Source: Lachnospiraceae bacterium
GTDB taxonomy: Bacteria > Bacillota > Clostridia > Lachnospirales > Lachnospiraceae
Length of the DNA stretch: 64,000 nucleotides
Reading direction: 5' to 3'
Assembly (NCBI GenBank): GCA_017621815.1
Contig: JAGASK010000050.1
Location: 1 to 64,000 of the forward strand
A program made the translations under genes and the position numbers. Positions 1,163-37,769 of the stretch are shown here, piece by piece (the first letter of the stretch is position 1; every line of letters starts with the position of its first letter). The notes below the pieces were generated by a model, which was not told the origin of the DNA, made no database searches, and was given only the letters and a program-made list of their open reading frames with translations.

Positions 1163-1630
1163 ATGCGTAATATGCCTAAAGTAATCGGTACAGGAAAGGA
1201 CATTTACAACCTTTTAGGAATGGTACAGGCGGGAAAGCTGGACGCGGCAGAGTTAAAAGAAGCAATTAGCGGAATCGAAGAAGTAAAATATATCTTTGTC
1301 CCGGTTATTGCTATTTCAGAAGACAAAAGATACATTACTACAAATTACCTGGCGGAAGCAGCAAAAGGCGCTAAGGTGCTTTGCGAAGGGGTGGAATACA
1401 CTATTAAGAGCGTGGAACACGTTGTAGTAGAGCCAGCGGCAGCAGCCGAAACCGAAGAAGAAAACACAGAAACGAAAGAGGAAAAGCAGACGGTAATAGG
1501 CGTTGACGCTGATTTAGAAGCAACAGCAGAAAAAGTAGGGGTAGAAAATCCGGTAAATATCTTAGATACTATCGGAATTACCCAGGGAGAGTTAGACAGC
1601 ATTAAAGGAGTGTTAGCGAAGTATGAGTAG
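1163..1630 (+). CDS. Phage protein of unknown function upstream of the DGR target
   Basis: 155 residues, acidic, with a low-complexity Glu/Thr/Ala linker around residues 90-112. The N-terminal 90 residues look like a small globular domain; the C-terminal 35 form a second helical segment. No family is recognised. Its last 8 bases overlap the start of the DGR target gene (ATG at 1623), so the two are probably translationally coupled. That position suggests a chaperone, adaptor or attachment protein for the variable tip protein, but this is inference. Confidence 0.65.
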   Translation: MRNMPKVIGTGKDIYNLLGMVQAGKLDAAELKEAISGIEEVKYIFVPVIAISEDKRYITTNYLAEAAKGAKVLCEGVEYTIKSVEHVVVEPAAAAETEEENTETKEEKQTVIGVDADLEATAEKVGVENPVNILDTIGITQGELDSIKGVLAKYE

Positions 1631-2729
1631 ATTTTTAAGCAACGACTTTATTAACAAAGACCCCCGCGCGAAGCTTACAGTAGCGAAAATGGCGAATATT
1701 GGCGACCTGGTAGCACCTTCGGCGGAGTACTTGGCAGCTACGGGACTTACAGAACTTACGGTAACTGCCGGGTGCGTGATTACTGTAGGCAGCGCCGGAG
1801 TATTCAAGACAGACGCTACAGTACTTAGTACAGGTAATTTAGACGCGGGAAGCGCCTTTACAGTAGGTAAGGACTATTATGTATATATTTGCGACCCTGG
1901 AAGCGAAGACCTGGACGAAGTATATAAAATCAGTCTTAACAGTACATACCCGGACGGCTACGACGCGGAAACAAGCCGTAAAATCGGCGGCTTCCATTAT
2001 GGAAGGGTAAGACAGGTAAGCAGTAAGCTTATTCCTATCAATACAGCCGGGGCAGAAAAAGGCAGCGGCTGGGAATCTAACGTAGCTTCCGGCATTGTTC
2101 CCCGTTCTGTATGGACGTTAAAACACCGCCCGAAATGCAGCCCCGAAGGTATGGTATACGCTGGCGGCGGATTGTGGGTAGATATTTACTTAGCTTCCAG
2201 CAACGGCGTAGGCGGCGTTAAATCTGCTTACAACGCTACACCGCTTACGGGTACAGAAGGACATAACAGCTATGACTTTATCGACCTGGGCTTAAAATCC
2301 GGGAAGCGTTTGTTATCTTATTCAGAATGGCAGCAAGCGGCTTACGGAAGTCCCCAGGGCGCAGACGGTAATAATACGAACGCCTGGGCTGCTACCACAA
2401 ATACAGCACGTACAACAACAGGAAAGGTAGTTAACGCGGTGTCTGCTATCGGTTGTGTGGATTGTGTAGGTAACGTGTGGGAATGGCTGGACGAATTAAG
2501 CTACAGATACGACGCTACCAGCGGTTCGGTTGCTTGGAGTTGGAAGGACGTATTAGGCGAAGGAAACGGACAGGCGTACACCCAGGGAACTTACGGGCTT
2601 GTTCGCCTTATCGCGGGCGGCAACTGGTACAACGGCGTTGACGCTGGCTGCCGCGCTGTCAGCTGTGGCCACTATCCGTGGTTCGTCCACACGTACATTG
2701 GCGCGCGCTTCGGCTGTGACAGTCTGTAA
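1623..2729 (+). CDS. DGR target: variable tail-tip protein with FGE/C-type-lectin-like domain
   Basis: 368 residues. Residues 1-110 look like a beta-rich structural/attachment region. From about residue 190 to the end the protein has the formylglycine-generating-enzyme/sulfatase-modifying fold used as a C-type-lectin display scaffold in many DGR proteins: YDFIDLGLKSGKRLLSYSEW, GNVWEW, RLIAGGNW and a terminal GARFGC. The last 40 residues are encoded by the variable repeat. By analogy with Mtd of Bordetella phage BPP-1 it should display a diversified surface that binds host-cell receptors. Residues encoded at mutable positions here are Tyr, Asp, Ser, Gly, His, Phe, His and Tyr in place of template Asn. 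It overlaps the upstream gene by 8 bp. Confidence 0.9.
   Translation: MSRFLSNDFINKDPRAKLTVAKMANIGDLVAPSAEYLAATGLTELTVTAGCVITVGSAGVFKTDATVLSTGNLDAGSAFTVGKDYYVYICDPGSEDLDEVYKISLNSTYPDGYDAETSRKIGGFHYGRVRQVSSKLIPINTAGAEKGSGWESNVASGIVPRSVWTLKHRPKCSPEGMVYAGGGLWVDIYLASSNGVGGVKSAYNATPLTGTEGHNSYDFIDLGLKSGKRLLSYSEWQQAAYGSPQGADGNNTNAWAATTNTARTTTGKVVNAVSAIGCVDCVGNVWEWLDELSYRYDATSGSVAWSWKDVLGEGNGQAYTQGTYGLVRLIAGGNWYNGVDAGCRAVSCGHYPWFVHTYIGARFGCDSL
2602..2720 (+). repeat. DGR variable repeat (VR)
   Basis: 119 bp at the 3' end of the target gene, matching the template repeat at 3226-3344 without gaps. By hand alignment there are 10 differences: 4 A-to-T, 4 A-to-G and 2 A-to-C, every one at an A of the template. 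The other 94 non-A positions are identical. The 3' end, including the G/C run GGCGCGCGC and the following TTCGGCTGTGAC, is identical and fits the initiation-of-mutagenic-homing region. Identity stops exactly at 2720. Confidence 0.97.
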
Positions 2730-2738
2730 TCTGTTTTA

Positions 2739-2758
2739 GTGCGGGCGGAAGCCCGCAC
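2739..2758 (+). promoter_or_regulatory. Post-VR hairpin/cruciform of the DGR
   Basis: GTGCGGGC, loop GGAA, GCCCGCAC: a perfect 8-bp GC-rich stem with a 4-base loop, 18 bp after the VR and 10 bp after the target stop codon. BPP-1 and related DGRs carry an 8-bp stem with a 4-base loop at this place, where it helps target-site recognition in retrohoming. The geometry matches, so I read it as the homing hairpin and not only a terminator; no T-run follows. Confidence 0.85.
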
Positions 2759-2832
2759 ACGCGATAAATTTTAAGGTAAATTTCCAGGATATAGGAAACA
2801 ATGAGGGAAAACGACACAAATAAAAAGGACTG

Positions 2833-2841
2833 TGATATAAT
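2833..2841 (+). promoter_or_regulatory. Candidate extended -10 promoter for avd-TR-RT
   Basis: TGATATAAT is an extended -10 element (TGn plus TATAAT) 25 bp before the avd start codon. No good -35 box is visible (CGACAC around 2812 is weak), as is common for extended -10 promoters. It would transcribe avd, TR and RT separately from the late tail genes. Confidence 0.5.
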
Positions 2842-2866
2842 CGCAAATCAAAGGAAGGGCGATTAT

Positions 2867-3205
2867 ATGAAAAGCAATTTAGAAATACAAGAAAAATTGT
2901 ACGATTTTATAAAGTACATATACCCGGTGCTAAGACAGTACCCGAAAAGTGAAAAGTTTTCACTTCAAAAAGATACTAAAAACTGTATCATGGATATTTT
3001 ACGGTACATCATCAGAGCCGGGAAAAGCACTACGAAGAAAAAGCTTTTATACGACGCGGACGTAGAATTAGTAATATTGCGGTACTATATCAGAATCGCA
3101 TACGACCAGCAGTATATAAGCGGGCATACATACGGAGTAGCCGCAAAGAAGATAACCGAAATAGGTAAAATGCTGGGCGGCTTCATCAAATCAGTACAAA
3201 GTTAA
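2867..3205 (+). CDS. avd: DGR accessory variability determinant (Avd)
   Basis: 112 residues from ATG 2867, preceded by AAGGAAGG. An in-frame ATG at 2801 lies upstream of the likely promoter, so the shorter form is chosen. The sequence is basic and helical (EIQEKLYDFIKYIYPVLRQY...), matching the four-helix-bundle Avd family. Avd forms a pentamer that binds the reverse transcriptase and the TR-spacer RNA and is needed for mutagenic cDNA synthesis. The length is typical and the position between target and TR is canonical. Confidence 0.9.
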   Translation: MKSNLEIQEKLYDFIKYIYPVLRQYPKSEKFSLQKDTKNCIMDILRYIIRAGKSTTKKKLLYDADVELVILRYYIRIAYDQQYISGHTYGVAAKKITEIGKMLGGFIKSVQS

Positions 3206-3501
3206 TATTATGGGCTATGCGTTGCTTCGCCTTATCGCGGGCGGCAACTGGAACAACGGCGTTAACGCTGGCTGCCGCGCTGTCAACTGTAACAACTATC
3301 CGTGGAACGTCAACACGAACATTGGCGCGCGCTTCGGCTGTGACTTATGGACTTTACAGACTTAGCAAGCTACGGCTTACTAGCAAGGACTATTACATAT
3401 AGTCAGAACGTGTAGCCCGTCCGGGGAGAATCCGGCAAACATAAAAAAGGACGCTTCCACTTAGTAGCGAAGGCGAAGGGTGGAAGCGGGAACGGCAGAA
3501 G
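3206..3501 (+). ncRNA. DGR template RNA: TR plus structured spacer
   Basis: The 296-bp gap between avd and RT holds the TR (3226-3344) and a 157-nt spacer. In BPP-1 the spacer RNA is essential for primed cDNA synthesis by the RT-Avd complex. Here the spacer can form GCTTCCAC/GTGGAAGC (3453-3460 with 3480-3487, 8 bp) and a CCGG...CCGG pairing near 3421-3435. RNA boundaries are inferred. Confidence 0.7.
3226..3344 (+). repeat. DGR template repeat (TR)
   Basis: 119 bp, 25 adenines by hand count, 20 of them in ten AAC codons (in register with the target frame). AAC is the favoured DGR template codon: random replacement of its two A's gives NNC codons, which reach 15 amino acids and never a stop. 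Eight of these ten codons are changed in the VR; the first and third are unchanged. Confidence 0.97.
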
Positions 3502-4554
3502 ATGAAAAGAAGTAACATAGGAATACAGGATATAGCGACTTTTGAAAATGCGGAAAGCGCATACAGAAAGGCGCGTAAGTGTAAAAGATACCGGGAAGAA
3601 GTCTTAAGATTTACGGACAACCTGGAAGAAGAATTATACGACCTGGTAGCAGACCTTTTAGCCGGGACGTATCAGCAAGGCGAAGCCCGGCGCTTCGTGG
3701 TATATGAGCCGAAGAAGCGCGATATATACGCGCTACCTTTCCGAGACAGAGTAGCGCAGCACATGATTAACACAAAAATAGAACCGATTATAGAAAAACG
3801 GTTTTATTATCATAGTTACGCTTGCAGAAAAGATAAGGGTATGCACCGGGCGGCAGATTACGCCCAGGAGTGCATAAGAAACCTATCTTATGAAGGAAAA
3901 CAGGTTTACGCATTAAAGGCAGATATAAGTAAGTATTTTAACAGCGTAGACCATGAAGTACTAAAAGAGATACTAAGCCGGATTTTCAAAGATGAAGACC
4001 TATTAAGGCTGCTTTATTATATTATCGACAGCTACGGCGAAGACGGGCGCGGGCTGCCAGTCGGAAACCTGTTAAGCCAGCTTTTCGCGAACCTGGTATT
4101 AAATGAGTTAGACAGCTATGTAAAAAATGAATTACAGGTAAAATACTACATTAGGTATATGGACGATTTTGTAATTATCCATAATGACCGGGAGTATTTA
4201 AAAGACATATTGCAAAAGATAGAAGCATTTTTAGGCGAACGGCTTAAGCTTACCTTAAATCCGAAAACGCAGATAATTAACACGAAGAACGGGTTAGACT
4301 TTTGTGGGTATCGTATCTATAAGGACTATAGGAAAATAAGGAAGCGCAGCCCGAAGCATATTAGGGCAGCTATCAAAGCCTACAGAAGCGGAAAAATAAC
4401 AAAAGATAAATTGCTAATGATTTATGCAAGCTGGGAAGGACACGCACAACACGCGGACACCTACAAGCTTCGCACAAAGATAAAAGGGCAGATAGAAGCA
4501 GAGATTAAGAAGAAGGAGTTAATAGCAAATGGCACTAATACGCCGCATAATTAA
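3502..4554 (+). CDS. DGR-type reverse transcriptase
   Basis: 350 residues. RT motifs are all present: ALPFRDRVAQHMI (motif 1), KADISKYFNSVDH with catalytic D141, GLPVGNLLSQLFANLVL (the GxxxSQ form typical of DGR RTs instead of SP), YMDD at residues 219-222, LTLNPKT, and GLDFCGYRI. No maturase or endonuclease domain follows, as expected. It makes the error-prone, adenine-mutagenised cDNA of the TR together with Avd. The start ATG lies in AGAAGATG, and the gene overlaps the next one by 26 bp. Confidence 0.95.
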   Translation: MKRSNIGIQDIATFENAESAYRKARKCKRYREEVLRFTDNLEEELYDLVADLLAGTYQQGEARRFVVYEPKKRDIYALPFRDRVAQHMINTKIEPIIEKRFYYHSYACRKDKGMHRAADYAQECIRNLSYEGKQVYALKADISKYFNSVDHEVLKEILSRIFKDEDLLRLLYYIIDSYGEDGRGLPVGNLLSQLFANLVLNELDSYVKNELQVKYYIRYMDDFVIIHNDREYLKDILQKIEAFLGERLKLTLNPKTQIINTKNGLDFCGYRIYKDYRKIRKRSPKHIRAAIKAYRSGKITKDKLLMIYASWEGHAQHADTYKLRTKIKGQIEAEIKKKELIANGTNTPHN

Positions 4555-5821: not shown

Positions 5822-6598
5822 ATGAAGATTTTACTTATTAGCGGGCATGGTGCGGGCGACCCTGGCGCTACGTCACAGTTTGGAAAGGAAGCAGACGAAA
5901 CTATTTACATGGTAGAGGAAATTAAGAAGACCTTAAGCAAATATGCACAGGTTGACTTATACCCTACAAACCGTAACGCCTACAGCGATATTAAGAAGGG
6001 TAAGCTTGCGGTTAACCTTGCCAACTACGGCTATGTGTTTGAAGTGCATTTTAACGCTTGTGTAAACGATACAAAGGGCAACGGCGTAACTACAGGTACG
6101 GAAATCTTTGTAACTACAGCAGAAAAGACCGTAGGCGTAGAAAACAGAGTACTTAAAGCTATTGCAGCCTTCGGCTTGAAGAATCGCGGCGTAAAGCGTA
6201 AGAATTATACCGTAATTGCCAGGGCAAAGGCGGCGGGCGTATCTTCCGCGCTGCTGGAAACGTGCTTTATTGATGATAAAGACGATATGCAGATTTACGC
6301 TAACAAAAAAGCGCAGATTGCGGAAGCTATCGCTATTGCAATCGCTGAACAGTTCGGGCTTAAGAAGAAGGCTACGGCAGCAGCAGTAAAGGAAATTAAA
6401 GCCGGAAGCGTGGTAACAATCCAGGACGGCGCAGTATACGGCGGCTTATCCGCTACAAGAGGTAAAGAAGTACCAGCAGCCCAGCGCGGCGGCAAAAAGC
6501 ATACAGTAGATAAAGTACAGACCAACAAGGGAGTAAAAGAAGCAAGACTTAAAGAAATTAACAGTTGGGTAGCTGTAGCAAGCTTAAAAGCTGTGTAA
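5822..6598 (+). CDS. N-acetylmuramoyl-L-alanine amidase (Amidase_3) endolysin
   Basis: 258 residues, no signal peptide, as for a holin-dependent endolysin. Residues 1-180 are the zinc amidase fold with probable Zn ligands/catalytic residues H9 (SGHGAGDPGA), E23, H76 (EVHFNA) and E146 (LLETCF). Residues about 195-258 form a small SH3-like wall-binding module (KAGSVVTIQDGAVYGG...WVAVASLK). It cleaves the bond between N-acetylmuramic acid and L-alanine. A second lytic enzyme follows 12 bp downstream. Confidence 0.9.
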   Translation: MKILLISGHGAGDPGATSQFGKEADETIYMVEEIKKTLSKYAQVDLYPTNRNAYSDIKKGKLAVNLANYGYVFEVHFNACVNDTKGNGVTTGTEIFVTTAEKTVGVENRVLKAIAAFGLKNRGVKRKNYTVIARAKAAGVSSALLETCFIDDKDDMQIYANKKAQIAEAIAIAIAEQFGLKKKATAAAVKEIKAGSVVTIQDGAVYGGLSATRGKEVPAAQRGGKKHTVDKVQTNKGVKEARLKEINSWVAVASLKAV

Positions 6599-6610
6599 GG
6601 GGGCTTCTAT

Positions 6611-7336
6611 ATGAATACAGAACAGAAGAACTTTATTAAGAAGGTGGGCGCGCTTGCGTCCGCCGATATGAAGAAATCGGGAGTACTGGCAAGCTTGACA
6701 GTAGCCCAGGCTATTTTAGAATCTGCATGGGGAAAGTCTGAACTTGCTACAGTCGGCAACGCCATTTTTGGTATCAAGGCTACTAAGTCCTGGAAGGGTA
6801 AAGTATATTGTAAAGATACTAAAGAATGTTACGACGGCGTAAACCTGGTAGACGTGAAAAACGCGGCTTTTCGCGCTTATGATAGCTGGGAAGAATCAGT
6901 AGAAGACCATAGCGCTTTTTTAAAGGCAAATAAGCGTTATAAAGAGGTAATCGGGGAAACTGATTATAAGAAGGCTTGCGAAGCTATTAAGGCTGCCGGA
7001 TATGCGACAGACCCGGACTATGTAGAAAAGCTGGTTAAGCTTATCGAAGATTATGAACTTACAGAGTTTGACGGGGCAGCAGTTAACCAGGAAGCGGAAA
7101 AGGAAGCGGCAAATAAGAAGTACTACAGGGTACAGGCTGGGGCGTTCCGAAGAAAAGAAGGCGCTAACCTTATGGCAGAGAAGATTAAGAAGACCGGGCA
7201 TACGGACGTATTCGTAAAGCTGCTTAACGGACTTTACAAAGTCCAGGTAGGCGCGTATAGTCAAAAGAGCAACGCAGAAGCGACGGTTAAGAAGCTTAAG
7301 GCTGCTGGTATTAGCTGCTTCATTACATACGCCTAA
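6611..7336 (+). CDS. GH73 endo-beta-N-acetylglucosaminidase with C-terminal SPOR-like domain
   Basis: 241 residues. Residues 5-155 are a FlgJ/LytD-type glucosaminidase with catalytic E37 in AILESAWGKS, followed by GNAIFGIKA. Residues about 170-241 hold two SPOR-type half repeats (YYRVQAGAFRRK, LYKVQVGAYSQK), a fold that binds denuded glycan. Pairing a SPOR-like domain with an amidase encoded next door makes sense, because amidases create denuded strands. It is the last recognisable phage gene; no signal peptide. Confidence 0.9.
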   Translation: MNTEQKNFIKKVGALASADMKKSGVLASLTVAQAILESAWGKSELATVGNAIFGIKATKSWKGKVYCKDTKECYDGVNLVDVKNAAFRAYDSWEESVEDHSAFLKANKRYKEVIGETDYKKACEAIKAAGYATDPDYVEKLVKLIEDYELTEFDGAAVNQEAEKEAANKKYYRVQAGAFRRKEGANLMAEKIKKTGHTDVFVKLLNGLYKVQVGAYSQKSNAEATVKKLKAAGISCFITYA

Positions 7337-7459
7337 AGAAGTAAAAAGGGGCAGCAGTCACGAAAGGTAATTTGCACGTAACTTACAAATGAGCCTAGAA
7401 AGCCCTATTTTCAAGGCTGGGAGTTATCCAAGAGATAGGAAATACGTATTATTATATGG

Positions 7460-7573: not shown

Positions 7574-7834
7574 ATGCCTGAGATATCACTATTTTATGGA
7601 ATCAGAGTAACCATGTATTATGATGACCATAATCCGCCGCATTTTCATGCGGAATACAACGGAAATAAGGCAATAATTGAAATAGATAAGGCGAGAGTAA
7701 TAAAAGGCGCTTTGCCTTCGAGGCAATTAAAATTAATTTTAGCATGGTGTGTGTTGCATCAGGATGAATTAATGCAGAATTGGGAACTATCGAAAGATGG
7801 AAAACCTATGAATCGGATTAATCCGTTAGTATAG
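7574..7834 (+). CDS. DUF4160 family protein
   Basis: 86 residues, ATG 7574 after AAGGAGG. The sequence MPEISLFYGIRVTMYYDDHNPPHFHAEY is the hallmark of DUF4160 (HxPPHFHA). It is followed 11 bp later by a DUF2442 gene; the two families are very often adjacent and have been proposed as a toxin-antitoxin-like pair, without a settled function. Located just outside the prophage, so it may be phage cargo or another small mobile module. Confidence 0.85.
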   Translation: MPEISLFYGIRVTMYYDDHNPPHFHAEYNGNKAIIEIDKARVIKGALPSRQLKLILAWCVLHQDELMQNWELSKDGKPMNRINPLV

Positions 7835-7845
7835 GAGGTGGCTGT

Positions 7846-8121
7846 ATGTTTCCAAAGGTTGTACAGGTAATACCAATGAAAGATTATTCAGTATATGTAT
7901 ATTTTGAGGATGGAAAAATTGTATGTTATGATATGTCGCATATGATTGAGAAAGATGTATTCCTCCCATTAAAAAATATGGATATTTTTTTGAATACTTG
8001 TACTGTGCTCAATGATACGCTTGCATGGGATACTAGCTTGAATCGGGATAATACTACCTGTTTGGACATTGATCCGGATACGCTATATGCTTTGCCATTT
8101 GCAGAAGAACAGATAGCTTAA
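7846..8121 (+). CDS. DUF2442 family protein
   Basis: 91 residues, RBS GGAGGTGG. It matches DUF2442 in its order of motifs (VIPMKDYSVYVYFEDGKI, then SLNRDNTTCLDIDPDTLY). It is co-transcribed with the DUF4160 gene (11-bp gap). The partner relationship is established by recurring co-occurrence, the biochemical role is not. Confidence 0.85.
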   Translation: MFPKVVQVIPMKDYSVYVYFEDGKIVCYDMSHMIEKDVFLPLKNMDIFLNTCTVLNDTLAWDTSLNRDNTTCLDIDPDTLYALPFAEEQIA

Positions 8122-8257
8122 TATGGGGTTGGAAAAGGTCAGTGTGTATGAAGGTATGTGGGTAACTAACGCGTAAGTGACAAATAATTTGAGAATCCTT
8201 TATTTTAGGCATTTGCAGTTCTCAAAGAGATAATCGGAAAGCTTATACGAGAATTTT

Positions 8258-26164: not shown

Positions 26165-27046
26165 ATGGTATTAGGAGCATTGGAAGCAGGCGGTACTAAG
26201 ATGGTCTGTGCCGTTGGAAATGAAAAGGGAGAAATATTTGAGCAGGTGTCGATTCCTACGGAGGCCCCGGCGATAACGGTTCCGAAGATGATTTCTTATT
26301 TTAAGGAAAAGAAAATAGAGGCGTTGGGAATCGGATGTTTCGGTCCCATAGATCCGGATAAAAAGTCGGAAACTTATGGATACATCACGAGTACGCCGAA
26401 GCTGGCATGGGCTGACTATAATATTGTGGGAGCTTTTGAGGAGGCTATTGGCTGTCCTGTGGGCTTTGATACGGACGTAAACGGTTCAGTGCTTGGAGAG
26501 GTTACTTTCGGACAGGCCAGGGGTAAAAGCAGCGTTATTTATATTACCATTGGAACCGGTGTAGGTGCGGGAATTTATATTGAAGGAAAGCTTCTTCACG
26601 GAATGCTGCATCCTGAAGCGGGGCACGTTCTGATTCAAAAGCGGAGTGATGATACTTATGGAGGCAAATGTCCTTACCACAAAACATGTCTGGAGGGCAT
26701 GGCAGCAGGACCTGCCCTTAAGGAAAGATGGGGAAAGGATGCTCGTTTATTAAAAGATAAAAAAGAAGTCTGGGATTTGGAAGCATATTATATTGCCCAG
26801 GCACTTACCAATTATATTTTGACTCTTTCACCGGAGCTGATTATTTTAGGCGGCGGCGTCATGCATCAGGAGCAGTTGTTTCCGCTGATTCGCAGTTACG
26901 TGAAGGATATGCTGAACGGTTATTTGAAAACAGAAGAACTGAAGGATTTGGAGCATTACATTGTACCTGCAAGCCTCAAAGACAATCAGGGAATTATGGG
27001 CTGTCTTGAACTTGGCAGGCGTGCAGTATGTGAAGAGCAGAATTAA
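26165..27046 (+). CDS. ROK-family sugar kinase (fructokinase type)
   Basis: 293 residues. ATP-binding GALEAGGTKMVCAVG at the N-terminus, catalytic Asp in FDTDVNGSVLGE, TIGTGVGAGI, and the ROK zinc site H-x-E...CPYHKTCLEG. The sequence is of the ScrK/YdhR fructokinase branch. The next gene starts one base after the stop. Confidence 0.88.
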   Translation: MVLGALEAGGTKMVCAVGNEKGEIFEQVSIPTEAPAITVPKMISYFKEKKIEALGIGCFGPIDPDKKSETYGYITSTPKLAWADYNIVGAFEEAIGCPVGFDTDVNGSVLGEVTFGQARGKSSVIYITIGTGVGAGIYIEGKLLHGMLHPEAGHVLIQKRSDDTYGGKCPYHKTCLEGMAAGPALKERWGKDARLLKDKKEVWDLEAYYIAQALTNYILTLSPELIILGGGVMHQEQLFPLIRSYVKDMLNGYLKTEELKDLEHYIVPASLKDNQGIMGCLELGRRAVCEEQN

Positions 27047-27047
27047 A

Positions 27048-29786
27048 ATGGAGCGTTTGACATTAGGAATTTTAGCCCACGTAGATGCGGGGAAAACAAC
27101 TTTATCGGAAGCCATACTTTATACAAGCGGTGATATACGCAAAGCGGGAAGAGTGGATAATAAGGATACCTTTCTTGACACCTATGAGCTGGAAAGGGAA
27201 AGGGGAATCACTATTTTTTCCAAGCAGGCCATTGTCAACTATAAAGATATGCGGATAACCCTGCTTGATACTCCCGGACATGTGGATTTTTCGGCGGAAA
27301 TGGAGCGTACCCTGCAGGTGCTGGATGCGGCAGTGCTGGTAATCAGCGGTGCAGACGGCGTACAGGGACATACAAAGACGCTGTGGCGGCTTTTGAAACG
27401 GTATCAGGTGCCTGTATTTTTGTTTATCAACAAAATGGACCAGCCGGGAACGGATAAGGAAGCTTTGCTTAAGGAACTTTCAGAGAAGCTGGATACAGGG
27501 TGTGTGGATTTCTCACAGCCGGATACAGATAGTTTTTATGAAAGTCTGGCTGTATGCGAGGAAGGAATGCTGAACCTCTTTTTGGAGGAAGGAAAAATAG
27601 AAACGGAGGAAATTAAGAGGGCTATAGCTGCCCGAAAGGTTTTTCCCTGTTTTTTCGGCTCTGCTCTGAGAATGTCCGGTGTGGAGGAGCTTTTGGAGGG
27701 AATCAGGAAATTTGCGACTGTTCCTGTGTACTCCGGGGAGTTTGGCGCCAGAGTTTTCAAAATAACAAGAGATGCCCAGGGAAACCGCCTTACGCATATG
27801 AAGATTACAGGCGGAAGTCTCTGTGCAAGGTGTGTGTTAAGTATAAAGAAAGCTTCGGATAAAGAGGAGGTTCTGGAAGAAAAGGTGAATCAGATCCGCA
27901 TTTATTCCGGAGAGAAGTTTGAAGCGGTAAAGGAAGCACCGGCAGGAAGTGTCTGTGCAGTAACCGGACTTACAGGAACTTTGCCCGGGGAAGGTCTGGG
28001 TAAAGAGCAGGAAAGAGAGATTCCTGTGCTGGAGCCTGTTCTGAGCTACTGTGTACAGCTGCCGGAAGGATATGATGCAGCCCTGATGCTTCCAAAACTT
28101 TTACAGCTTCAGGAAGAAGACCCCATGCTGCATATCGTCTGGGATGAGGAACTTAAGGAAATTCATGCCAAGGTCATGGGAGAAGTGCAGACAGAGGTTT
28201 TAAAGCGCATGATTTATGAGCGTTTCGGGGTGGAGGTTTCCTTCGGTACCGGGCGCATTGTTTATAAGGAGACTATTGCCGATAGGGTGGAAGGAGTAGG
28301 GCACTTCGAGCCTCTTAGGCATTATGCGGAGGTGCATCTGCTTCTGGAACCGGGAGAGCCGGGCAGCGGTCTTGCTTTTGCTGCGGATTGCAGTGAGGAC
28401 ATTCTGGGGCGCAACTGGCAGCGGCTTGTTTTAACTCATTTAGAGGAAAGGGAGCACCGTGGTGTGCTTACAGGTTCGCCCATTACAGATATGAAAATTA
28501 CTCTGGTAGCAGGAAAGGCGCATCAGAAGCATACAGAGGGCGGTGATTTCAGACAGGCTACTTACCGTGCCCTGAGACAGGGACTGATGGAGGCACAGTC
28601 AGTGCTGCTGGAGCCCATATATGAGTTCCGGCTGGAGGTGCCGGAGGGTGCTGTCGGACGGGCAATGACGGATATGGAAAAGCTCCATGGAAGCTTCACT
28701 TTAGAGGAACGCAGCGGCGAAACGGCAGTGCTGACAGGAACGGCGCCGGTGGTAACACTTCAGGATTATCAGAAAGAAGTAACGGCTTACACGAAAGGAC
28801 ATGGAAGGCTGTTTTGCAGTTTTAAGGGATATGCACCCTGTCATAATGCTGAGGCGGTAATGGAAAGCAGGAGATATGACCCGGAAGCTGATTTGAGAAA
28901 TCCTTCCGCTTCCGTTTTTTGCGCTCACGGAGCAGGGTTTGTGGTGCCCTGGAATCAGGTAAAAAATTATATGCACCTTCCCGGCTGCATGGAAGGAGAC
29001 CGGGAGACCATACTGGAAAGTGCTTTTGAGGAAGAACTTGCAAAGCGCAGACAGGCAGCCTTAAGCAGACAGGAGCTTCTGAAAGAGCAGGGCGGGGAGG
29101 TTTTTATCGGAACCGAAGAAATAGATGCTATTTTAAGCCGCACTTCAAATGCAAACAGCAGACAGGACGGTAATAAGAAAAAAGAAGGCTGGCAGAGAGA
29201 GCGCAGGAGCGGTGAAAATGCAAGTACCGGCAAATCCTCCGTTACACGTGTTTATAAGGGACAGGAAAAGAGGGAAGAATACCTTCTGGTGGACGGGTAT
29301 AATGTGATTTTTGCATGGGAGGATTTAAAGGAGCTGGCAGCTGTCAATTTAGACGGTGCAAGAGGAAAGCTTCTTGATATTCTGTGCAACTATCAGGGCA
29401 TTAAAAAATGCAGTTTAATAGCTGTGTTTGACGCCTACAGGTTAAAGGGACATCCTACGGAGATTCTTGATTATCACAATATTCATGTGGTATATACAAA
29501 AGAAGCGGAAACTGCAGACAGGTATATTGAGAAGTTTGCACATGATAACGGAAAGAAGTACGATATTACAGTAGCCACCTCCGACGGTCTTGAACAGATC
29601 ATTATCAGGGGAGAAGGCTGCAGGCTTTTGTCTGCCAGGGATTTAAGGGAGGAAATAGACAGGGCACAGGCAGCGCTGAAGGAGGAATTTCTTGACAGGC
29701 CAGGGAAAAGCAAAAACTATCTGCTGGACGGATTGTCAGGGGAAGCACAGGAGCAGCTTATGAAGCTGCAGTCCCCTGTGGATTAA
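27048..29786 (+). CDS. Tet(M)/EF-G-like ribosomal GTPase fused to a YacP/Rae1-type NYN nuclease domain
   Basis: 912 residues from ATG 27048, one base after the ROK stop. Residues 1-640 follow ribosomal protection proteins: P-loop A10-HVDAGKT, switch-II D74-TPGH, N128-KMD, then EF-G-like domains II-V (YCVQLPEGYDAALMLPKL, HYAEVHLLLEPGEPGSGL). A charged linker (about 690-740) leads to a C-terminal NYN/PIN domain: L-V-D749-GYNVIFAW, VFD795AYR, ETAD824RYIE, TSD846GLEQ. These four Asp are the conserved acidic positions of YacP/Rae1, the ribosome-associated A-site mRNA endonuclease of Bacillus. The fused protein could bind stalled ribosomes with its GTPase body and cut mRNA there. GTPase-only annotation as a tetracycline-resistance protein would miss this. 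Confidence 0.88.
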   Translation: MERLTLGILAHVDAGKTTLSEAILYTSGDIRKAGRVDNKDTFLDTYELERERGITIFSKQAIVNYKDMRITLLDTPGHVDFSAEMERTLQVLDAAVLVISGADGVQGHTKTLWRLLKRYQVPVFLFINKMDQPGTDKEALLKELSEKLDTGCVDFSQPDTDSFYESLAVCEEGMLNLFLEEGKIETEEIKRAIAARKVFPCFFGSALRMSGVEELLEGIRKFATVPVYSGEFGARVFKITRDAQGNRLTHMKITGGSLCARCVLSIKKASDKEEVLEEKVNQIRIYSGEKFEAVKEAPAGSVCAVTGLTGTLPGEGLGKEQEREIPVLEPVLSYCVQLPEGYDAALMLPKLLQLQEEDPMLHIVWDEELKEIHAKVMGEVQTEVLKRMIYERFGVEVSFGTGRIVYKETIADRVEGVGHFEPLRHYAEVHLLLEPGEPGSGLAFAADCSEDILGRNWQRLVLTHLEEREHRGVLTGSPITDMKITLVAGKAHQKHTEGGDFRQATYRALRQGLMEAQSVLLEPIYEFRLEVPEGAVGRAMTDMEKLHGSFTLEERSGETAVLTGTAPVVTLQDYQKEVTAYTKGHGRLFCSFKGYAPCHNAEAVMESRRYDPEADLRNPSASVFCAHGAGFVVPWNQVKNYMHLPGCMEGDRETILESAFEEELAKRRQAALSRQELLKEQGGEVFIGTEEIDAILSRTSNANSRQDGNKKKEGWQRERRSGENASTGKSSVTRVYKGQEKREEYLLVDGYNVIFAWEDLKELAAVNLDGARGKLLDILCNYQGIKKCSLIAVFDAYRLKGHPTEILDYHNIHVVYTKEAETADRYIEKFAHDNGKKYDITVATSDGLEQIIIRGEGCRLLSARDLREEIDRAQAALKEEFLDRPGKSKNYLLDGLSGEAQEQLMKLQSPVD

Positions 29787-34853: not shown

Positions 34854-35186
34854 AAAAGGCCCACCAATTCACATATTCATTATATCGTAGCTTTTTATGT
34901 GAAGCAAATGAATTTTTTATAAACACTAATTGAATCAGTTCAGCCGTTATCATTAATTATTAAAAAAGTATAAATTCCCATTTCCGGGATTGACGATGAT
35001 AAAAGCATGTGATATGCTTGGAACACTTACCGCTTAGTGAAAAAGTGAATAGAAAAAGAGTGAAGCCTGTCTGTGGATAACCATGGACAGGTTTTTGTTC
35101 GTGGCAGCAGAAAGTTTGTAAAACCAGCTTTCTGTTGTTGTATAGGTATCTATCATACGTATTCTTCTAAGCGAAAGGAAAAGAAA
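34854..35186. promoter_or_regulatory. 333-bp gap with promoter and leader of the His/Cys repeat gene
   Basis: From 34854 to about 34980 the DNA is AT-rich without recognised features. A promoter follows at 34990-35018: TTGACG, 17-bp spacer, TGA-TATGCT (extended -10). The leader of about 160 nt holds CACTTACCGCTTAGTG (a small hairpin, about 35024-35039) and then a terminator before the gene. Confidence 0.6.
35067..35097 (+). terminator. Leader terminator/attenuator of the His/Cys repeat gene
   Basis: CCTGTC..TGG-ATAA-CCA..GACAGG followed by TTTTT, lying between the promoter (34990-35018) and the ATG at 35187. Transcription must pass it to reach the gene, so expression is probably conditional. 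Confidence 0.7.
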
Positions 35187-37769
35187 ATGAAAAAATTAGT
35201 GATAACTAAAAAGAGAAAAATAAAAGCATTTCAAACAAAGAAAAAGGCATATCGGGCAATGGGAAAGGCGGCGGCAATAGCCCTGGCATTCAGCATGGCA
35301 GCAGGAAATGCGCCCACAGCTCTTGCCATGGAAGGTGATGCCGGAGATTCGGCTTTAAGACAAACCGTTACTTATGTGTATCATCAGCATGCAGGCAATG
35401 AAAACGAAGAGGGCGGATGCTATATGACCCCGGTATTCCATGTGCATGAGGGAGATGAAAAAAGGGGAGGAAGCTGTTATGAAACTCCTGTTTGGCATGA
35501 GCATGAGGGCAGTGCTGAAAGCGGAGGAAGCTGCTATAAAACACCGGTTTACCATGTGCATGAAGGTGATGAAGAAAAGGGAGGAAACTGCTATGAAACT
35601 CCCGTTTATCATGTTCATGCCGGAAACGAAGAAAAGGGAGGCGGCTGCTATGGCAGTCCTGTTTATCATGTTCATGAGGGAAGCAAAGAAAAGGGAGGAA
35701 GCTGTTACGGCACACCGGTTTATCATGCCCATACGGGGAATAAAAACAGCGGAGGCGGCTGTTATCAGGAAATAATTTATCATACCCATACCGGCAATGA
35801 AAACAATGGAGGCGGCTGCTATGGGAAGGCGCTCTATCATGTCCATGCAGGAAGCGAAGCCGGCGGCGGCTGTTTTGGGACACCTGTTTATCATGTGCAC
35901 AGCGGAAACGCTTCTTCGGGAGGCGGCTGTTACGGTACCGCGATCAGACATACTCATTCGGGGGATGAAGTATCGGGCGGAGCATGCTATAGCCCTGTTT
36001 ATCATACGCATACGGCAGATTGTGATATTGAGGTATCCAGTGAGGATTTGGGCTGTGAGACGGTACGGTGGGAAGACACCGGAGACGATGATTATGAAGG
36101 TCACGATTATAAAAACTTTTATATGTCCTGCGGTGTAACGGTACATGGAACTAATTCCTCCCATACTCATATGGTGCATAATTGCGGCAAAGATGAAAAC
36201 ACTCTGGAAGGATATGTTCTTGGCTGCGGAAAAACGGAAGATACGGTGGAAGGTTATGCGTTAAATTGCGGAAAAACAGAATCCACGGTGGAAAAATATT
36301 CCTTAAGCTGCGGTAAAAATGAAGCTACAGTGGAAAAATATGTTTTAAACTGCGGCAAGACAATGACCACAATAGAAGGTTATTCACTTAACTGCGGAAA
36401 AACAGCATCCACAATTGAAAGCTATACTCTTGATTGCGGAAAAACAACAGCATCCATAGACAGTTATAAAAGAAACTGCGGTAAAAATGAAAAGACAGTG
36501 GAAGGGTATGAACTCAGCTGTACCAAGGACGAAAAAACCATTGACAGCTATAAGCAGAGCTGTTTTAAAACAGAAAAAACAGTTGATGCCTATGCGTTAA
36601 GCTGTAAGAAAACAGCTTTAACAGTTGAAGGCTATCAAAGAAGCTGCGGAATGGATGAGACCACTCCCTACGGAAAGATTACGCTGACCAATGAAACAGA
36701 GGGTGAAGGTGAAAAGGTAAAGCTTACTGCCGTTTATGAAAACCTGCCGGGAGGCAATGCGGAACTTTCGGACAATCCCTTCACATGGTATGACAGTCAG
36801 GGAAATGAAATCGGAAAAGGAGAAACTGTTGAGGTTTCAGAAAACGGAAATTATTCTGTTGTAACAGAGGTTAAAAATGAGGACATTGATAAAGACAGTC
36901 TGAAGTCTGAAATCGCAGTTGACAATGTTGTTATACCGGAGAAGGAAGAATCTGATGACAAGGGTGAAGCCGGGGATAAAAACAACGACGGTAAAGATGA
37001 TGCCGGTGATAAGACTGACAATGGCAGTGGAGACGGCAATGGCAGCGGCAGTGAAGACAATGGCAGTGGAGACGGCAGCGACAATGACAACAACGGCGAC
37101 AATGGTGGCAGCGACAACGGCAATGGCAGCGGTGATGGAGATGCAGACACTGACAGCGGCAATGGCGCTCTGACTGATTTAATAAAGAAGCTTCTGCCTG
37201 TTCCGTCAAAAGAACCTGTTAAAGAAAAGGAAACAGGAAAACCTTCTATGGTTTCCAAAGTACAGAAAAACAAGGCAGTCGTAAAACCGTCAGAAACTCC
37301 GGAGCCCACCATAAGTCCTGAGCCGGAATTTTCAATAAATACAGAAACAGTGAAGCTTGAAGAACGTGAAAGTGAAGGAGAAGAAATTGCTGAAATAAAT
37401 ACGGTTGAATCCAGAGAAGGCTTTTTTGATTCACCTGTTGTTCGTCTGATTACCATTACAGCCGGAACCTTTGCGGCTCTGACAGGATTATTTGTGCTGT
37501 TATATCTGCTCAGATGGAGCGTTAAAGTATATAATGATGACGGTAAAGGCGGAAGGCTTTATCTGGGAAGATGTTCCGTAAAAACAGATGAAGACGGATA
37601 TATAATCAGGATTACCGATGAAATGGCTGAAAAGGCTGTTACCAACAGATATGTGATAAAACCGGGATTGTTTAAGGCTTTCAGAAGCGAGGATGAAGAA
37701 TTGATTGTATGCAGGGGGCAGAAGAGAGTTTCCGTATATTTGAGCAAAGAGATGATAGTAGTAGTATAA
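35187..37769 (+). CDS. Secreted membrane-anchored His/Cys tandem-repeat protein
   Basis: 860 residues from ATG 35187 (GCGAAAGGAA upstream). Long basic signal sequence (cleavage near residue 50, after ALAM). Residues 65-271: eleven 18-19-residue units YHVHxGxxxxGGxCYxxPV, each with HxH and one Cys. Then a linker with further His/Cys, and residues 333-486: eleven 14-residue units CGKTxxTVExYxLx, each with one Cys. Next a small Ig-like region (ITLTNETEGEGEKVKLTAVY), an Asp/Asn/Gly/Ser-rich spacer, a membrane helix (about 753-776) and a cytoplasmic beta domain of about 80 residues. More than 20 His and 20 Cys outside the cell suggest metal binding or a disulfide-linked stalk. Related HxHxG...GGGCY repeats occur in predicted Firmicute surface proteins, but I know of no characterised one. 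Confidence 0.8.
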   Translation: MKKLVITKKRKIKAFQTKKKAYRAMGKAAAIALAFSMAAGNAPTALAMEGDAGDSALRQTVTYVYHQHAGNENEEGGCYMTPVFHVHEGDEKRGGSCYETPVWHEHEGSAESGGSCYKTPVYHVHEGDEEKGGNCYETPVYHVHAGNEEKGGGCYGSPVYHVHEGSKEKGGSCYGTPVYHAHTGNKNSGGGCYQEIIYHTHTGNENNGGGCYGKALYHVHAGSEAGGGCFGTPVYHVHSGNASSGGGCYGTAIRHTHSGDEVSGGACYSPVYHTHTADCDIEVSSEDLGCETVRWEDTGDDDYEGHDYKNFYMSCGVTVHGTNSSHTHMVHNCGKDENTLEGYVLGCGKTEDTVEGYALNCGKTESTVEKYSLSCGKNEATVEKYVLNCGKTMTTIEGYSLNCGKTASTIESYTLDCGKTTASIDSYKRNCGKNEKTVEGYELSCTKDEKTIDSYKQSCFKTEKTVDAYALSCKKTALTVEGYQRSCGMDETTPYGKITLTNETEGEGEKVKLTAVYENLPGGNAELSDNPFTWYDSQGNEIGKGETVEVSENGNYSVVTEVKNEDIDKDSLKSEIAVDNVVIPEKEESDDKGEAGDKNNDGKDDAGDKTDNGSGDGNGSGSEDNGSGDGSDNDNNGDNGGSDNGNGSGDGDADTDSGNGALTDLIKKLLPVPSKEPVKEKETGKPSMVSKVQKNKAVVKPSETPEPTISPEPEFSINTETVKLEERESEGEEIAEINTVESREGFFDSPVVRLITITAGTFAALTGLFVLLYLLRWSVKVYNDDGKGGRLYLGRCSVKTDEDGYIIRITDEMAEKAVTNRYVIKPGLFKAFRSEDEELIVCRGQKRVSVYLSKEMIVVV
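35379..35999 (+). repeat. Eleven 54-57-bp tandem repeats (His/Cys units)
   Basis: 207 codons: nine units of 19 residues and two of 18 (units 9 and 11). DNA of neighbouring units is similar but not identical, so the array is old or under selection for sequence. A twelfth, degenerate HTH unit follows. Confidence 0.93.
36183..36644 (+). repeat. Eleven 42-bp tandem repeats (Cys units)
   Basis: 154 codons, exactly 11 units of 14 residues beginning with Cys. Unit count equals that of the first array. A partial twelfth unit (CGMDETTPYG) follows. Confidence 0.93.

Follow-up and report, generated by a model that had tools for sequence, protein, structure and literature searches.

The stretch of DNA analysed here, hereafter the window, comprises positions 1-64,000 of contig JAGASK010000050.1, and all coordinates given without another label refer to it. 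Near its left end lie, in this order, an mtd-like target gene, avd, a template repeat (TR), a spacer RNA and a reverse transcriptase (RT) gene, the order known from the diversity-generating retroelement (DGR) of Bordetella phage BPP-1 (Table 1). An earlier note on this DNA had proposed a complete, prophage-borne DGR in which the variable repeat (VR) departs from the TR at adenines only; the protein families, gene order, hairpin and spacer RNA found here all agree with a complete element. A Pfam profile search of the target open reading frame (ORF) returned mtd_2nd (1.2e-43) and FGE-sulfatase (3.1e-7), the ORF was assigned to the PHROG tail family phrog_11262 (8.2e-83), and PDB entry 1yu4 (Mtd-U1, the BPP-1 major tropism determinant) matched residues 33-368 of its product (1.2e-17). 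These matches identify the target as homologous to Mtd, the protein with which BPP-1 chooses its host. The "FGE/C-type-lectin-like tail-tip protein" described previously is thereby sharpened: the FGE domain and the tail family stand, while the C-type-lectin fold is still putative. As in a DGR target, the VR occupies the 3' end of the gene, which here encodes a protein with mtd_2nd and FGE domains.

The other two proteins of the element were equally recognizable. In DGR-clade RTs the GxxxS motif ends in SQ instead of SP and is accompanied by YxDD, and the translation of the RT gene in the window contains both YMDD and VGNLLSQ. Its top PDB match, 8ub7, is an entry that also holds Avd, and among solved structures it is nearest to the BPP-1 RT. 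The longest avd ORF begins at 2801. The RT, avd and target genes are all intact ORFs, and the DGR-type RT, Avd and spacer that had been called intact were recovered as these motifs, the bAvd family and the Rfam family RT-14.

Table 1. Coordinates of the retroelement features in the window.
Feature	Position	Strand	Evidence and remarks
mtd-like target gene, 368-aa tail protein, VR at 3' end	1623..2729	+	Pfam mtd_2nd, FGE-sulfatase; phrog_11262; PDB 1yu4
Variable repeat (VR)	2602..2720	+	119 bp; 10 mismatches to TR, each at a template A
GC-rich 3' end of VR, like the initiation of mutagenic homing (IMH) element, identical in TR	2697..2720	+	No window substitution past 2694; named IMH by analogy with BPP-1
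Hairpin GTGCGGGC-GGAA-GCCCGCAC	2739..2758	+	Sequence and DNA fold; 18 bp past VR
avd (accessory variability determinant)	2867..3205	+	Pfam bAvd 1.5e-33; phrog_3206 Avd 1.8e-37; PDB 4dwl Bbp7 3.8e-8
Template repeat (TR)	3226..3344	+	Ungapped 119-bp repeat; 76% DNA identity over 103 bp with the annotated BPP-1 TR
Spacer (Sp) RNA 3' of TR, Rfam RT-14 (RF02921)	3344..3488	+	65.5 bits, gathering score 48.1; full-length model match
DGR reverse transcriptase, 350 aa	3502..4554	+	YMDD, VGNLLSQ; phrog_1423 7.1e-128; PDB 8ub7 2.9e-56

Positions, repeat length and difference counts proved to be as reported earlier. The VR and TR align without gaps at an offset of 624. They differ at 10 of 119 sites, and every one of these is a TR adenine (four A>T, four A>G and two A>C); the TR offers 25 A and 94 non-A template positions, and the VR departs from it at none of the latter. 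The probability that 10 random differences on 119 sites would all land on the 25 adenines is 3.1e-8. All 10 substitutions fall on one of the two adenines of an AAC codon. The TR holds 10 such codons in frame, the number previously counted, of which eight are changed in the VR, all non-synonymously. Since NNC codons are never stops in the genetic code, changes at AAC codons are stop-free. From the last base of the VR to the end of the target ORF there are 9 bp, stop codon counted. Its last 24 bp are the same in VR and TR, and the two sequences part immediately beyond 2720. The hairpin behind the VR is GC-rich, with an 8-bp stem and a GGAA loop. According to Guo et al. 2011 (PMC3240598), the hairpins of phage DGRs combine a GC-rich stem of 7-10 bp with a 4-nt 5'GRNA loop and stand 4-34 bp past the VR, and such a hairpin is required for efficient homing in BPP-1; the window hairpin, with its GGAA loop 18 bp from the VR, falls within these ranges of stem, loop and distance. 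Searching the draft genome (91.55% complete) with the TR at E 0.001 for further VRs returned only the TR and the VR. Two more RTs in this genome (contigs C8 and C52) match RVT_1; the same TR search gave no match near either, and they were not counted as members of the system.

We followed the pattern in four close cassettes orthologous to that of the window: L003 and L004 from IMG/VR, and L083 and L084 from genome contigs, with RTs 94%, 87%, 82% and 81% identical to the window RT, respectively. Each has the same hairpin stem length and loop as the window. Compared with its own TR, the VR differs at 12 sites in L003, 13 in L004, 12 in L083, 14 in L084 and 10 in the window; 60 of these 61 differences are at A. 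Counted by cell, VR and TR differ in 60 of 118 A cells, against 1 of 477 non-A cells, the cells not being independent by descent. The differences change 46 codons over the five cassettes, all non-synonymously, the single exception at a non-A base included. The VR substitutions of the window differ from those of each of the four relatives. With 87%, 81% and 78% identity to the window in L003, L004 and L083, respectively, the VR is the lowest of seven cassette parts in these three comparisons, in which identity is 91-99% for TR and avd; with L084 the VR is at 82% and the RT is lower, at 80%.

The repeats also changed together. The TRs of L003, L004, L083 and L084 differ from the window TR at 2, 9, 11 and 8 bases, respectively, and 11 non-A columns vary between the TRs of the relatives. 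At these columns the base of the own TR was found in the VR of all five cassettes, as expected if the VR is overwritten from the TR repeatedly. We computed dN/dS of the RT for the pairs window-L003 (0.12) and window-L004 (0.10), L083 and L084 being left out owing to length difference; the RT is under purifying selection in both pairs. Together with the concerted TR/VR evolution, this supports the earlier statement that the element appears functional. As a separate observation, TR columns 21, 38, 89, 92, 93 and 95 are A in some relatives only (L004:5714-5832, L083:5724-5842, L084:5724-5842), so that different phages have different sets of variable residues.

The target sits among tail and baseplate-like genes, with BppU_N at 443-1144; Amidase_3 and Glucosaminidase domains lie at 5822-7336 (Pfam). 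The window starts at the contig start, within alanine-rich repeats. In the L003 record Pfam identifies a phage integrase and a terminase, together with portal and capsid proteins. The integrase matches C36:20190-21269, on contig C36 of the same genome as the window (95%), and the terminase matches C36:33414-35030 (99%). The prophage is spread over two contigs, C36 and the window, which were analysed as separate sequences. The integrase and terminase on C36 support the prophage origin claimed before, and the gene content, comprising an integrase together with structural genes and lysis genes, is that of a temperate prophage within a bacterial chromosome. The host is probably a gut Lachnospiraceae, judging from the relatives (Roseburia and Lachnospiraceae metagenome-assembled genomes). 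Alanine-rich repeats spaced 21 bp occupy 1-240 and are the likely reason for the assembly break within the prophage.

On C36 the integrase has the ribosomal S9 gene (rpsI) to its left. The sequence immediately following rpsI in G421 aligns with the window from 7429 onwards; in G427 the sequence behind rpsI does so from about 8215 onwards, where the window has a second rpsI-end-like sequence. As these alignments place it, integration adjoins the rpsI 3' end, and the right end is near 7430 or near 8216-8236, because the two matches start at different window positions. A 15-bp repeat (C36:19668 and window 7375) had been considered as the attachment core and was dropped, the G421/G427 comparison pointing to the rpsI 3' end; the repeat belongs to a cluster near the integrase and is more likely an integrase arm site. 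The rpsI-3'-end-like sequences, at about 7420-7440 and 8216-8236, flank a DUF4160/DUF2442 gene pair (7574-8121), and DUF4160-like DNA stands directly behind rpsI in G421. The pair may represent cargo of the prophage or else an earlier insertion at that site.

We put at roughly 95% the probability that the locus holds a complete, probably working BPP-1-type DGR, carried by a temperate phage that has integrated beside rpsI, in which the TR-spacer RNA is copied by RT and Avd and the VR is rewritten. This is not a new kind of system; BPP-1-type cassettes are common and well studied. By homology, RT and Avd together would reverse transcribe the TR-spacer RNA, making errors opposite adenines of the template. 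The resulting cDNA would take the place of the VR in the 3' part of the mtd-like gene, presumably guided by the GC-rich terminus of the VR and the hairpin that follows. The ten AAC codons would permit stop-free change at up to ten C-terminal residues of the Mtd/FGE-domain tail protein, and virions with different binding faces would be made. The concerted TR/VR evolution indirectly supports RT-dependent, A-mutagenised cDNA and retrohoming, and the homology with BPP-1 suggests that the target serves receptor switching.

Several observations weigh against this reading. In L083 a single difference falls on a non-A base, namely a C>T at TR base 3, close to the 5' edge. In BPP-1, mismatches between IMH and IMH* lie inside the repeat, whereas in the window none lie there, the two sequences only parting beyond 2720. 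The structure predicted for the target is of poor quality, with a mean pLDDT of 46.8 and the VR domain <50, and lends the fold no support. Activity was read from assembled sequences, not population reads. Finally, an estimated 3.2 kb of prophage, by comparison with L003, is missing between the end of C36 and the start of the window, so that the viability of the phage is putative.

Three other explanations were weighed. The retroelement may work while the variable protein has a role other than binding host receptors, such as binding mucus or particles. Phage DGR targets have indeed been suggested, in work on Faecalibacterium prophages (PMC11792537), to bind environmental material besides host cells, but the Mtd homology over residues 33-368, the tail and baseplate-like gene setting with BppU_N, and the BPP-1 precedent make this unlikely here. 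We consider it improbable that the DGR once worked and is now inactive with a frozen VR, for example in a defective prophage. The split over two contigs and the estimated gap would suit such a history, and current activity cannot be shown by one genome; set against this are the intact RT, avd and target ORFs, the purifying selection on the RT in two pairs, and the L003 record, which has a phage integrase at one end and an ORF in the glucosaminidase position at the other. In addition, both non-A changes between the TRs of L003 and the window are also present in the VR, which has 15 differences in all, suggesting homing since the two split. A plain duplication of the mtd 3' end, its copies held similar by gene conversion without reverse transcription, can practically be dismissed: the concerted evolution taken alone would fit it too, but gene conversion has no such base preference as confines 60 of 61 differences to template adenines, Avd is present, and the RT has its nearest solved structure in that of BPP-1.

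The spectrum of changes was compared with that of BPP-1. The AAC codons of the five cassettes (n = 45) yield N 9, Y 8, G 8, S 6, D 4, H 4, F 2, L 2, R 1 and V 1, and the second A of AAC is replaced by C in none of 20 changes. A context study of the BPP-1 RT (PMC12875486) describes a distinct AAC error profile, with mutations mainly to Tyr, Ser and Asp, and NAC contexts that raise G misincorporation (A>C in the sense strand). The AAC residue spectra are roughly alike, whereas the raised A>C at the second A is absent from the five cassettes, both features of these cassettes being filtered by selection. In 133 other VR/TR pairs, changes of the second A to C were also rare (55 of 393), and for this reason no clade-specific mutation signature is claimed. 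The survey found 148 pairs, from which 10 duplicate loci were dropped by name, some of the remaining pairs being nearly identical to one another; the pair finder required at least 80% of differences at A, so the 133 other pairs cannot test A-specificity. A strict hairpin scan (perfect 7-10 bp stems, GRNA loop) was positive in 17 of 118 pairs, two of the 17 being copies of the window locus, which is not a frequency estimate.

The RT-14 match occupies most of the spacer between TR and RT. The BPP-1 spacer matches Phage_DGR (RF03022) instead, a family to which the window spacer gave a weak alignment (3362-3488, 17.9 bits, E 0.88). We scanned 23 sources, namely the window, L163, L164 and 20 related loci, all reached via a DGR RT, a sampling that shows the place of RT-14 within DGRs and not that every RT-14 is part of a DGR. 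RT-14 reached the gathering score in 13 sources, with all 13 matches starting 0-4 bases before the TR end; L163 had Phage_DGR, and nine sources (L164, L086, L088, L010, L016, L023, L024, L034 and L037) matched neither family. Because RT-14 starts at the TR 3' end in 13 of the 23 sources, it looks like a DGR spacer RNA. The story is not a simple one: L086, L088, L010, L023, L024 and L037, with spacers of neither family, have targets 46-58% identical to that of the window, the nearest outside the five close cassettes, so the spacer RNA would either not follow target kinship or have diverged below the Rfam threshold. RNAalifold predicted 42 pairs in the five close spacers, with two-sided changes in two of them, a weak covariation. 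No paper on the RT-14 RNA was found in the literature searched. Very probably RT-14, a generic name, denotes the structured spacer part of the TR RNA in a broad group of BPP-1-like DGRs and is the counterpart of RF03022; the RNA served by DGR RTs would thus comprise at least two families, which Rfam does not group in one clan. With RT-14 tied to DGRs, annotation could find such elements by their RNA, which is one modest addition of this analysis.

Two further window proteins deserve mention. An 898-aa protein (35073-37769) has many HVHEGDExxGGxCYxTPVY-type repeats rich in His and Cys; it had no Pfam match at 0.001, and our guess is a metal-binding surface protein. A 941-aa ORF (26961-29786) combines an elongation-factor-G-like GTPase (GTP_EFTU, EFG III, IV and C) with a C-terminal YacP-like NYN domain (Pfam).

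Among the closest known systems is the BPP-1 DGR (AY029185), whose mtd-avd(bbp7)-TR-RT order the window element shares. BPP-1 Mtd is 33% identical to the window target and the BPP-1 RT 37% to the window RT, the TRs are related as given in Table 1, and BPP-1 has a single VR/TR pair by the scan used here. As in the window, an 8-bp GC-rich hairpin with a 4-nt GRNA loop is described behind the BPP-1 VR (PMC3240598). The two differ in their spacer families, in the Mtd-like N-terminal region, which is shorter in the window, and in the probable host. Faecalibacterium phage Lagaffe and related prophages, as presented in PMC11792537, likewise combine a gut prophage DGR with a BPP-1 Mtd-like target, and A-specific variation between cognate genomes is reported there for Lagaffe-type DGRs; Lagaffe_CP has two variable regions, in contrast to one in the window (PMC11792537). 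The FP_Lagaffe RT is 39.5% identical to the window RT. Eubacterium rectale is a gut bacterium of the same broad group. The phage-related DGR of its strain DSM 17629 has a post-VR hairpin of the same class as the window, a likeness by description and not by sequence (PMC3240598). More broadly, DGR clades carried by viruses have been reported by Roux et al. 2021 (PMC8144416) from phages whose predicted hosts are gut Firmicutes, Bacteroidetes or Proteobacteria, along with broad DGR activity. The known DGR mechanism is unchanged by our finding; what the window adds to these systems is a clean and intact example of an Mtd-type DGR from outside Bordetella, and its four orthologues, which stand at graded distances, allow TR/VR co-evolution to be read directly from sequence.

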